A stretch of DNA of 22,214 bases. Origin: a virus. The stretch spans positions 1 through 22,214 of the IMG/VR virus record IMGVR_UViG_3300044940_000232; one strand, 5' to 3'. Positions within the stretch are counted from its first letter, which is position 1. Every line of letters begins with the position of its first letter. The position numbers and the translations under genes were made by a program. Positions 1 to 4,702 of the stretch are shown here, in pieces. Below the pieces are notes generated by a model. The model worked only from the letters and a program-made list of their open reading frames with translations, ran no database searches and had not been told where the DNA came from.

Positions 1-163
1 GGGCGCGGGGCCATTCCGCGCCGCAGGCGGGGGCGCGGGGCCATTCCGCGCCGCAGGCGGGGGCGCGGGGCCATTCCGCGCCGCAGGCGGGGGCGCGGGG
101 CCATTCCGCGCCGCAGGCGGGGGCGCGGGGCCATTCCGCACCGCAGGCGGGGGCGCGGGGCCA
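1..163. repeat. 30-bp tandem repeat array (5 full copies plus a 14-bp partial copy)
   Basis: Five head-to-tail 30-bp units begin at 1, 31, 61, 91 and 121. A truncated sixth begins at 151 and matches the unit through the first bases of the next start codon. The first four copies are identical and the fifth differs only at position 140 (G to A). Each unit contains the inverted repeat ggcgcgg/ccgcgcc, a 7-bp stem with a 7-base loop (unit positions 2-8 and 16-22); the change at 140 breaks one pair in copy 5. The array has no stop codon in any forward frame and 30 is a multiple of three, so copy-number change would keep every frame open. The window begins inside the array, so its true length is unknown. 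Confidence 0.97.
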
Positions 164-166
164 TGA
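2..166 (+). CDS. 3' end of an upstream gene with a decapeptide repeat tail (possibly small terminase)
   Basis: Read from base 2, the repeat encodes the ten-residue unit GAGPFRAAGG five times (Ala to Thr in the last copy), then GAGP and a TGA stop at 164-166. That stop overlaps the ATG of the large terminase gene as ATGA, the same junction used by most gene pairs in this window. This favours frame 2 as the coding frame of the array. The gene immediately before a large terminase is commonly the small terminase subunit, which binds DNA at the packaging start site; that identity is inference because only the repeat tail is in the window. The tail would be flexible, Gly/Ala-rich and positively charged (one Arg per unit). 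The alternative is that the array is noncoding and the terminase uses its own initiation signal. Confidence 0.45.
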   Translation, partial: GAGPFRAAGGGAGPFRAAGGGAGPFRAAGGGAGPFRAAGGGAGPFRTAGGGAGP

Positions 167-1641
167 GCCAAGCTGCCACCACCTTTCGCGCGCCTGGGCC
201 GATCAGCGCGGCTTTCCTCGAGAACACGCACGAAATCTCGGTGCTGTGGGGGCCGGTCGGGTCGGGCAAGACGGTGACCGCGCTGATGCGCGGCATCATT
301 GTGTCCTACTTCGCGCACCCCGAGCGCGATGGCATTCGCCGCGTCAAGGGCGCGGTGATCCGCCGCACCTTTCGCGACCTGTGGTCGACCACGATCCCAA
401 GCTGGTGGGCCTGGATTCCGCAAGGCTCCGGCCGCTGGACGGGCGGCAAGGACGAGCCCGCCACGCATGAGCTGGTGCTCACGCACCCGGACGGCGGCCG
501 CATCGAGCTGATCGTCGAGTTCAAGGCCTTCGGCGAACAGCGCTTGGAGGAGGCGTTGCGCGGCTGGGAAGGCTCCTGGGCCTATGTGGACGAATGCGAC
601 CTGCTCGACGAACGCGCGCTGCCCTGGCTCCTCTCACGCTGCGGCCGCTATCGCCTCGCGCAGCAGGTGAACCCCGAGCGCCACCCGCCGTGCCGGTTTG
701 TTTGGGGCACGTGCAACGCCACCGATACCGATCACTGGCTTTACCGCGACATGGTCGAGCAGCCGCGCGAAGGCGTGAAACTGTTCCGCCTGCCAGGCGG
801 CCTTGATCCGAACGCGGAACGCCCGCCCGGCATCACGCGCGAATACTACGAGACCCTGCGCCGCACCATGCAGCCATGGGAGGCGCGGCGCTTTGTTGAC
901 GCGCTGCCTGGCTATTCGCGCGACGCGGATCCAGTCTTCCCCGAGTTCAACGCCGCGCATCACGTCGCGCGCGAGCCGCTGCGGCCGATCCCGTGGCGGC
1001 CGCTGGTGATTGGCATTGACGCTGGCGGCACGCCTGCTGCGACCTTTTGGCAGCGCGACACGGCGGGGCAATGGCGTGGGTTGGCTGAGCTGGTCGCGCC
1101 GCCCAACGGTGTCATGGGGCCAAGGCGCTTCGGCGAGGCGCTGGCGCAACTGCTTGCCGAGGAGTTCCGCGAGGTCGATCCCAAGTCGATCGTCGGCGTG
1201 GCTGATCCCGCTGCGGCCTATGGTGCTGACCGGCTGGCCGGCGACGACGACTGGATTGAGACCGTCGCGCGCGTTGCGCGCATCCGGATCATTCCTGCGC
1301 CGACCAACAAGATTGCGCCGCGGCTCGAAGCCATCCGCCGACCGCTCACGACTTGGATCGACGGCGTCACTCCTGGCCTGATCCTCTCGCCCGCCATGAA
1401 GAGGACGCGCCGCGCGCTGGAAGCCGACTACCGCTTTCGCCGTGTTGCGATGGGGCCCGGCCAGTGGCGGCGCGAAGACGTGCCCGACAAGCACAGCCCG
1501 AACGGCGCGAGCCACATCGCGGACAGCGTGCAATACGCGCTGCTGCACCTTGGCGGCTATGCCGAGGCCAAGGCGCGCGACCCGCGCCCGGCCGCGCGGT
1601 TCACTGCGCCCATCGTCGCCACCACAGGCTTTCGCGTGTGA
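163..1641 (+). CDS. terL: Terminase large subunit (packaging ATPase and nuclease)
   Basis: This 492-residue protein is the DNA-packaging motor and headful or end-cutting nuclease. The N-terminal ATPase shows a Walker A loop GPVGSGKT at residues 30-37, a Walker B strand SWAYVDECD ending near D143/E144, and a coupling-type motif WGTCNATD at 181-188. The C-terminal RNase H-like nuclease shows the expected three acidic positions in LVIGIDAGG (D286), VGVADPAAA (D348) and HIADSVQYAL (D454). Length fits the family. The ATG at 163 overlaps the TGA of the frame-2 repeat ORF and lies in the truncated last repeat copy, so initiation may depend on coupling. The frame stays open upstream to the window edge as an Arg-rich repeat without an ATG, so an N-terminal extension is unlikely. 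Confidence 0.96.
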   Translation: MSQAATTFRAPGPISAAFLENTHEISVLWGPVGSGKTVTALMRGIIVSYFAHPERDGIRRVKGAVIRRTFRDLWSTTIPSWWAWIPQGSGRWTGGKDEPATHELVLTHPDGGRIELIVEFKAFGEQRLEEALRGWEGSWAYVDECDLLDERALPWLLSRCGRYRLAQQVNPERHPPCRFVWGTCNATDTDHWLYRDMVEQPREGVKLFRLPGGLDPNAERPPGITREYYETLRRTMQPWEARRFVDALPGYSRDADPVFPEFNAAHHVAREPLRPIPWRPLVIGIDAGGTPAATFWQRDTAGQWRGLAELVAPPNGVMGPRRFGEALAQLLAEEFREVDPKSIVGVADPAAAYGADRLAGDDDWIETVARVARIRIIPAPTNKIAPRLEAIRRPLTTWIDGVTPGLILSPAMKRTRRALEADYRFRRVAMGPGQWRREDVPDKHSPNGASHIADSVQYALLHLGGYAEAKARDPRPAARFTAPIVATTGFRV

Positions 1642-2837: not shown

Positions 2838-3062
2838 ATGGCAGCCATCTTTTCGCCGCCGAGGCCACGGGGGCCTGACCCAGGCCTGGTCGCCGCGCAG
2901 CGGCAGCAGCTGGAAGACGAGCGCAAGCGCGCCGCGCAGTTGGAGGCCGAGAAGCAGAGCCGCCTGCGCGCCATGCTTGGCCGCAGCACGGGCCGCGTGA
3001 GCCTGCTCGGCGGCTCCGAAACCGGCGTGCCCGACAGCGCTGGCAGGGAGACCTTGGGATGA
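2838..3062 (+). CDS. Small coiled-coil protein preceding the portal
   Basis: This 74-residue protein has AGGAGG at 2824-2829, eight bases before the ATG at 2838. Residues 16-46 are a highly charged helix (VAAQRQQLEDERKRAAQLEA and onward), probably a coiled coil. The tail contains GRVSLLGG and ends RETLG; a GR-S-L-L...LG ending resembles short proteins that I recall lying directly before T7 gp8-type portal genes. The function of these is not established; a structural or portal-assembly role is inferred from position. The stop overlaps the portal ATG as ATGA. Confidence 0.82.
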   Translation: MAAIFSPPRPRGPDPGLVAAQRQQLEDERKRAAQLEAEKQSRLRAMLGRSTGRVSLLGGSETGVPDSAGRETLG

Positions 3063-4702
3063 GCGCGCGTCTTCCTCCGCTGGCCGAGGCCGAGGCCAAG
3101 GCGCTGCTCAAGCGCTCGAAGGCGGCCTTCGCGCGGCTCGACCGCTACATGGCGACGTTCCGCGACATCGTGGAACTTTGCATGCCGCAGCGGGACGCGG
3201 TGACCGGCAAGGCCGAGGGCCAGGAACGCACGACCGCCATCTACGACTCGACCGCCTGCTACGGCACCTCGCGCTTTGCCAACCGAGTCGTGCAGGCGAT
3301 GTTTCCCGCGCAGGAGCGGTGGGCCGAGCTGCGTCTTTCGGTGCCGGAGCTGGACGACGCTGATGAGGTTGACCGCGAGGCGCTGCAAATCCGCCTGGAA
3401 GCGGTCAACCGGCTCATCTTCCAGGCCATCCGCGAAAGCAACTTCGACCTCGCGATCGTCGAGGCCGCGCATGATCTTGCCGCCGGCACCATGGCGATGC
3501 TCGTCGAACCCGGCCGCGCGGCCGGCGGCTGGGGGGCTGCGAGTTTGCGCTTCCAGGCCGTGCCCATCGGCGCGGTGGCGATTGAGGACGGCCCCTTCGG
3601 CACGGTGGGCGCTGCGTTCCACAAGCAGCGGCTTGCCGCGCGGCTGATCCGCCCCACCTGGCCCGATGCTGAGCTCGACGCCGAGCTTGCCCGCAAGGTG
3701 GAGCAGCGGCCCGACGACGAGGTCGAGCTGCTGCACGCCACAGCCTACGACTACGACCGCCAGGCATGGCGGATTGCCGTGCTGCACAAGACGCATGTCG
3801 TCGTGGACCGCGCGGCGCGCGCCTGCCCGTGGGTCGTCGTGCGCTGGATGCGCACTCCGGGCCAGGTCTACGGCTACGGGCCGCTGACCATGGCGTTGCC
3901 AGACATCCGCACGCTGAACAAGGCCAAGGAACTGACGCTGCAGAACGCGGCGCTTAGTGTGGCCGGGGTGCATACGGCGGTGGATGACGGCGTGCTGAAC
4001 CCGCTGACCATCCGCTTGACCCCGGGCGCGATCATCCCGGTCGCGTCGAATGGCGGGCCGCGTGGGCCGTCGCTCGCGCCGCTGCCCCGCTCGGGCAGTT
4101 TCGACCTGAGCCAAATCGTGATCGAAGAGCTGCGCCGCGACATCCGCGCCGCCCTCTTCGACATCCCGCTGCCCGATCAAATCCGGTCGAACGTGTCGGC
4201 GACCGAGATCGAGCAGCGGATGGCCGAATACAACCGCCAGACCGGCGCTTTCGGGCGGCTTTACATCGACGGCACGCGGCCGCTGATCCACCGCATCGTT
4301 GACATCCTGGACGACGAGGGCGTGCTGCCCGGCGTGTTCGACCTCCTGCGCGACGACAGCATTCGCGCCGTGCCGACCTCGCCGCTCGCGGTGATGATGG
4401 ACATGGCCGAGGTGCAGACCATCGCCCGCTATGTGCAGATGGGCGCGGCCTTCGAGGCCTTCGATCCGGGCTTCATCCGCCGCGGCATCTCGACCGAGCG
4501 GCTGGCAAGCTGGCTCGCCGAGCGTCTTTCGGTGCCCGCCGTGCTGCGCATCACGGAGGCCGAGCGCAGGGCGCAGGCTGAGAAGGCCCAGCAGATGCAG
4601 ATGCTGGAGATGGCGGCGAAGAGCCCGGCCGTGGCGCGTGTCGCCGACAACCTCACCGATCCGCGCACGCTGGCGCGTCAACCCATGGCGGGGTCGGCAT
4701 GA
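3059..4702 (+). CDS. Portal (head-to-tail connecting) protein, T7 gp8 type
   Basis: This 547-residue protein matches the podovirus head-to-tail connecting family in size and character. The N-terminal region has the family-like segment DRYMATFRDIVELCMPQRD followed by IYDSTACYGTSRFANRV. The middle has YGYGPLTMALPDIRTLNKAK, a strongly typical portal segment, and SNVSATEIEQRMAEYNRQTG precedes the long helical C-terminal part. Twelve copies are expected to form the ring at the unique vertex, binding the terminase during packaging and the gp11-type adaptor afterwards. The ATG overlaps the previous stop, and the TGA at 4700-4702 overlaps the next ATG at 4699. The C-terminus ends in a charged Gln/Met-rich helix. 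Confidence 0.95.
   Translation: MSARLPPLAEAEAKALLKRSKAAFARLDRYMATFRDIVELCMPQRDAVTGKAEGQERTTAIYDSTACYGTSRFANRVVQAMFPAQERWAELRLSVPELDDADEVDREALQIRLEAVNRLIFQAIRESNFDLAIVEAAHDLAAGTMAMLVEPGRAAGGWGAASLRFQAVPIGAVAIEDGPFGTVGAAFHKQRLAARLIRPTWPDAELDAELARKVEQRPDDEVELLHATAYDYDRQAWRIAVLHKTHVVVDRAARACPWVVVRWMRTPGQVYGYGPLTMALPDIRTLNKAKELTLQNAALSVAGVHTAVDDGVLNPLTIRLTPGAIIPVASNGGPRGPSLAPLPRSGSFDLSQIVIEELRRDIRAALFDIPLPDQIRSNVSATEIEQRMAEYNRQTGAFGRLYIDGTRPLIHRIVDILDDEGVLPGVFDLLRDDSIRAVPTSPLAVMMDMAEVQTIARYVQMGAAFEAFDPGFIRRGISTERLASWLAERLSVPAVLRITEAERRAQAEKAQQMQMLEMAAKSPAVARVADNLTDPRTLARQPMAGSA

Follow-up and report, generated by a model that had tools for sequence, protein, structure and literature searches.

A rigidly spaced DNA module at the end of a terS-like gene as a candidate packaging-initiation site, with a probably functionless 30-bp array between it and terL

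The virus genome fragment studied here, which makes up an entire IMG/VR virus record (22,214 bases) and is referred to as the window, begins with a 30-bp tandem array directly before the large terminase gene. The array alone is of minor interest; what merits attention is a conserved module of about 115 bp that lies about 250 bp upstream of it, beyond the edge of the window. This module straddles the stop codon of a terS-like gene and consists of an IHF-consensus site, ATCAANNNNTTA, a direct-repeat pair, which we call R, and a palindrome, which we call H1. Packaging initiation is the function that we infer for the module and the one best supported by our comparisons. We put at roughly 0.6 the probability that the module is a packaging-initiation site of the kind represented by lambda cosB or P22 pac, and that the array is an unselected minisatellite. 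If the module does initiate packaging, it would provide a sequence rule for where packaging starts in many uncultured phages and prophages. It would also provide a testable small-terminase family without known relatives, and a system of defined geometry in which to study how small terminases recognise DNA, a mechanism that has been called unclear and controversial (PMC9611059).

The neighbourhood of the array does resemble a packaging region, as the earlier note on this DNA had proposed. terL (163..1641, + strand) encodes a large terminase subunit of 492 aa (PHROG terminase large subunit, E 8.7e-18), and a head-to-tail connecting (portal) protein is encoded at 3059..4702 on the + strand (PF12236, E 5.8e-78). 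The genes 3' of terL match head-tail connector, T7-type capsid assembly protein, capsid and nozzle families, and we therefore regard the window as a podovirus-type head and packaging operon. The sequence upstream of window base 1 was taken from TerL relatives, in which the gene order is terS-like gene, an inter-terminase region of 270-441 nt, and terL. A first genome scan with a close TerL alignment gave no match. The best cultured TerL relative that we found is Burkholderia phage BcepC6B, at 34% identity, which shares the order TerS, short gap, TerL and head-tail genes but whose small terminase does not resemble the terS-like family. Alphaproteobacterial podovirus-type packaging modules are also carried by prophage relatives of Sulfitobacter phage PhiGT1, in which terS is likewise unrecognised and was assigned from its place before terL alone; the main-text passages that we found make no mention of packaging-site repeats, hairpins or an intergenic element (PMC10386132).

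The terS-like gene lies directly upstream of terL, the position expected of a small terminase, and it is from position only that we assign it this putative role. The family comprises 73 homologues among the TerL-selected loci, and in most of them the terS-like stop codon falls about 190-460 nt before terL. Searches of the protein against Pfam, NCBIfam and PDB sequences returned no significant match, and the sole match of the family is to a PHROG of unknown function, phrog_15261. An AlphaFold model of the protein (mean pLDDT 73) contains a confident helical core at residues 63-121, and a Foldseek search with this model gave no significant fold match to known TerS. We found no cultured phage that carries the family. 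Taken at the level of sequence and predicted fold, this may be a small-terminase family without recognised relatives. The 73 terS-like genes are further characterized by an AT-hook-like GRPxGSxN motif alongside the confident helical core.

The IHF-consensus site was matched at 36 of the 73 loci, compared with 1 of 363 control windows. The matched sites lie in one terS frame, where they encode QxLS or QxVS-type peptides, and they do so with codons that are otherwise disfavoured. When the site is defined from the protein, CAA is used at 36/40, CTT at 14/14 and GTT at 25/26 of the occurrences, compared with 20%, 6% and 11%, respectively, elsewhere in the same terS genes. This use of disfavoured codons indicates a constraint on the DNA. 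The second element, R, is a pair of exact direct repeats of at least 8 nt at the terS stop, present at 47/73 loci and in 27/364 control windows. The spacing of the pair is 14 or 15 bp in 44 of the 47 loci, and because a spacing of 14 bp breaks the reading frame, R is not simply a repeat in the protein. The R sequences differ between loci, around AGTCGGACG. The similarity between R sequences correlates with TerS identity once TerL is controlled for (partial r 0.17, p 0.002; p 0.70 for the reverse), a relationship that may reflect linkage, since R sits within or next to the terS-like gene. The third element, H1, has the form CTGAT-N5-ATCAG and occurs at 36/72 loci, where dinucleotide shuffles predict 0.33. 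Its loop follows the asymmetric consensus YGNAA (CTGAT-YGNAA-ATCAG), and the outer pair of the stem, which was not used in selecting the palindrome, covaries (GC 13, AU 10, CG 3, GU 2, other 7). H1 is absent from about 40% of the loci, and all three elements are absent from 10 of the 73.

We tried three other identities for the palindrome and rejected each. In the chromosomal prophages L127 and L129, the IHF site, H1 and terL form one uninterrupted stretch, and an attP site would be split there by integration; ARAGORN detected no tRNA in 14 loci; and a search for known RNA families in Rfam gave no match.

The three elements are held at fixed distances from one another. The IHF site is separated from R by 27.0 +/- 1.8 bp and from H1 by 100.6 +/- 2.5 bp (typically 100-103 bp), and phages whose TerL proteins share about 30% identity keep this spacing. 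Measured from the stop codon, by comparison, the place of each element varies with a standard deviation of 18-22. Fixed spacing combined with a drifting stop-codon position marks the three elements as a rigid DNA module whose place shifts with respect to the gene boundary. In L002, a close relative of the window, the IHF-like site is at 4495-4506, the R copies are at 4524-4534 and 4539-4549, and H1 is at 4597-4611; the array follows from about 4869 and terL from 5001. The same geometry bears on the idea that the hairpins work at the mRNA level, as controls on the translation or transcription of terL. Both the asymmetric YGNAA loop and the covarying stem of H1 would suit an RNA element, but the distance from H1 to terL varies widely (sd 204) whereas the DNA spacing between H1 and the IHF site is fixed. 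The inter-terminase RNA of L002 also folds no better than shuffles (z 0.03), and Rfam contains no match. We therefore consider a role in mRNA quite unlikely.

The module can be recovered by its DNA pattern. Using no protein information, we scanned 2.9 million IMG/VR viral contigs for the IHF consensus followed by N86-93 and CTGATN5ATCAG. The pattern occurs at at least 119 loci, with a terS-like gene adjacent in at least 85, terL within 900 bp downstream in at least 83 and an R pair in at least 68, though R was not part of the pattern; these loci are related and some were already in the TerL set, so the counts are not independent events, a limit that leaves the contrast with a decoy unaffected. 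The decoy, a spacing of N126-133 for which the scan was complete, yielded 45 stretches, and among the 44 analyzed there were no terS-like genes, no terL and no R pairs.

The composition of the module, with iteron-like repeats, an IHF site and a palindrome, is also what a replication origin beside a primase gene might look like. In 47 loci there is a primase-helicase gene upstream, and in L148 (13-130) and L165 (4066-4183) the module is found just before primase in place of terL, which shows that its occurrence does not depend on the terS-terL junction. Even so, we regard an origin as improbable. The elements of the module are kept in L107, L052, L112, L068 and L059, where no upstream primase was detected; in L205 (2894-3010, - strand) and L207 (2456-2571, - strand) the module is upstream of a terS-like gene and a gene in the terL place; and the most constant partner of the module, among the matches listed, is the terS-like gene. 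The ORF in the terL place of L205 has no match to the family's terL profile. An identical module, ATCAAGGGGTTA ... CTGATGAAAGATCAG with an R pair, occurs in L164, L177 and L197 upstream of likely scaffold and capsid genes; no terL was recognised in these three loci, which possibly use a different terminase family.

Packaging initiation, our preferred reading, would proceed in three steps. Host IHF would bend the DNA at the IHF-consensus site, the small terminase would bind to the R repeats in tandem, and the initial cut by the large terminase would fall at H1, close to it, or in the neighbouring region of G/C runs. We have moderate confidence that the module acts like a terminase recognition site. 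We also lean, if only slightly, toward a broader proposal, in which these loci represent an undescribed and widespread class of packaging-initiation site. In this class, an IHF site, R 27 bp further on and H1 at 100-103 bp would straddle the end of an unrecognised small-terminase family and accompany it, in some cases ahead of a different terL or next to a primase.

The closest known arrangement is that of lambda cosB, where three TerS-binding R sites and the IHF site I1 lie within about 120 bp and IHF bending brings the R sites together for terminase (PMC4669245). Both cosB and the module are compact stretches of DNA beside terS in which repeated short sites and an IHF site, identified by consensus in our case, are set at defined spacing. 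The module differs in having one direct-repeat pair, 14-15 bp apart, downstream of the IHF site and at the 3' end of terS, together with a conserved palindrome 100 bp away; the terS-like protein is also unrelated by search. Because the module has no known cohesive ends, a different order of elements and no recognisable TerS relative, we do not classify it as cosB. In P22, the pac site lies inside the small-terminase gene and is described as a single 22-bp asymmetric sequence (PMC9611059). The module resembles pac in that its putative recognition sequence overlaps terS, the IHF-like site falling within the terS-like gene and R within it or next to it. It differs from pac in consisting of several candidate elements at fixed spacing.

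Two further features occur between H1 and terL. Many loci, for example L026, L033, L110 and L129, have a hairpin formed by G5-7/C5-7 runs, and a CCGACCCC box is present in the inter-terminase region of 15/69 loci and absent from the + strand of control regions. Together, the G/C-run hairpin and the box make up a further conserved element in this interval. An unusual number of contigs start in the 160 bp or so before terL, at scattered bases and with no single cut position; the offsets of these contig ends from the terL start are -2 (L006), -2 (L109), -9 (L020), -41 (L117), -57 (L089), -68 (L032), -119 (L098) and -162 (the window). These starts may be assembly breaks at G/C runs or real packaging cuts. 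We rejected the attempt to read a fixed virion end from them, given that the bases scatter and that assembly breaks in G/C runs explain the starts equally well.

The array itself (GGGCGCGGGGCCATTCCGCGCCGCAGGCGG; 1..164, + strand) is the single array that Tandem Repeats Finder reports in the window, with a period of 30, 5.5 copies and 99% matches, in agreement with the five perfect or near-perfect units described in the earlier note. Units 1-4 do not differ from one another, unit 5 carries a single substitution (G to A at base 140), and the unit was not found elsewhere in the window. A half unit of 14 bases extends into the terL ATG at 163, so that the G-box GGGCGCGGGGCC (151..162, + strand) stands directly 5' of the ATG; many relatives have related G-rich boxes at this place. 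Since the array runs up to base 1 of the record, where the contig start cuts it, the true number of units is at least five. The 7-bp inverted repeat that had been attributed to every unit, GGCGCGG-N7-CCGCGCC, pairs fully in units 1-4 but with one mismatch in unit 5. Since a shuffled unit of equal composition carries a 7-bp inverted repeat about 11% of the time, the repeat says little by itself. The RNA fold of the array in the window is slightly better than that of shuffles (z -2.0), as is usual for repeats. An array that touches base 1 and is perfectly periodic over 1-139 could be an assembly artefact at a contig end, a possibility of which the earlier note had warned, but L002 makes this extremely improbable. 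At 96.5% nucleotide identity to the window over 2.6 kb, L002 holds four units fully inside its contig, with unit variants at both ends and unique sequence on both flanks. The array is therefore real.

Close relatives differ in how much of the array they carry. There are at least five copies in the window and four in L002; a single diverged unit (24/30 identical, 80%) with a half unit is present in L005 and L008; in L007 and L009, inspection by eye shows a G-rich box that precedes the half unit by 30 bp; and L003 and L004 have the half unit only, with no recognisable full unit. Relatives with at least five, four, one diverged or no units have TerL proteins that are 89-99% identical, and large arrays at the inter-terminase position are not general among the relatives examined. 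These two observations weigh against the suggestion that the array is a multiplied terminase-binding or cutting site, as does the presence of a rigid module about 250 bp away. The suggestion draws on the fact that the array adjoins the probable packaging region, on the over-representation of GGGGYGYGGGG-type G-rich boxes in the inter-terminase region and on the occurrence of more than one such box in some relatives. With a copy number that is not conserved among such similar terminases, we consider it unlikely.

Judged by its distribution, the array is a recent, lineage-specific expansion, confined to the closest lineage of the window, and it probably has no function of its own. It would be a 30-bp minisatellite in the DNA between both terminase genes, probably derived from two pre-existing G-rich boxes 30 bp apart before terL that were multiplied by slippage or unequal recombination. 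Paired G-rich boxes with this separation are seen before terL in L005, L007, L008 and L009. The inter-terminase region of L002 (L002:4549-4868) is 441 nt long, compared with 270-273 nt in other close relatives, and contains about 78 nt of extra GC-rich sequence besides the array.

Frame 2 of the array (2..166, + strand) encodes GAGPFRAAGG in each unit and ends with TGA at 164-166 in an ATGA overlap with terL, exactly as first described. The proposal that this reading is the tail of the small terminase did not hold, as the terS-like gene ends 270-441 nt upstream and the array is not continuous with the terS frame. The more general proposal, of a protein tail on a coupled upstream gene, fared better in one respect: the frame is entered from upstream, since in L002 a frame begins at an ATG that overlaps the stop of the terS-like gene and continues through the array into the terL ATGA. 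The decapeptide repeats could then form the C-terminal tail of a small protein encoded between terS and terL, with stop/start overlaps at both ends. Consistent with such a protein, frame 2 is open across the inter-terminase region in all seven close relatives, from the ATG at the terS-like stop to the ATGA, and the lengths of this region in the close group (270, 273 and 441) are all multiples of three. L005 and L008 differ there by a compensated pair of single-base indels and both end in GAGPSRAAGG, and openness of the frame-2 type is over-represented among open frames (25/38). Frame 2 does not, however, evolve like a protein. Pairwise differences by codon position are even, at 471/443/472, whereas the same count shows the usual third-position excess in the terS-like gene (264/239/774) and in terL (590/280/2553). 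GC content at codon positions 1, 2 and 3 is likewise flat in frame 2, no family match was found for its product, and inter-terminase regions with a fully open frame are no commoner overall (35/60 loci) than in shuffles (33 expected). We therefore judge frame 2 to be open without being protein-constrained, and the existence of a coding tail to be doubtful. The even distribution of differences over codon positions suggests that the GAGPFRAAGG decapeptide is probably an unselected by-product of an array that is itself probably non-coding.
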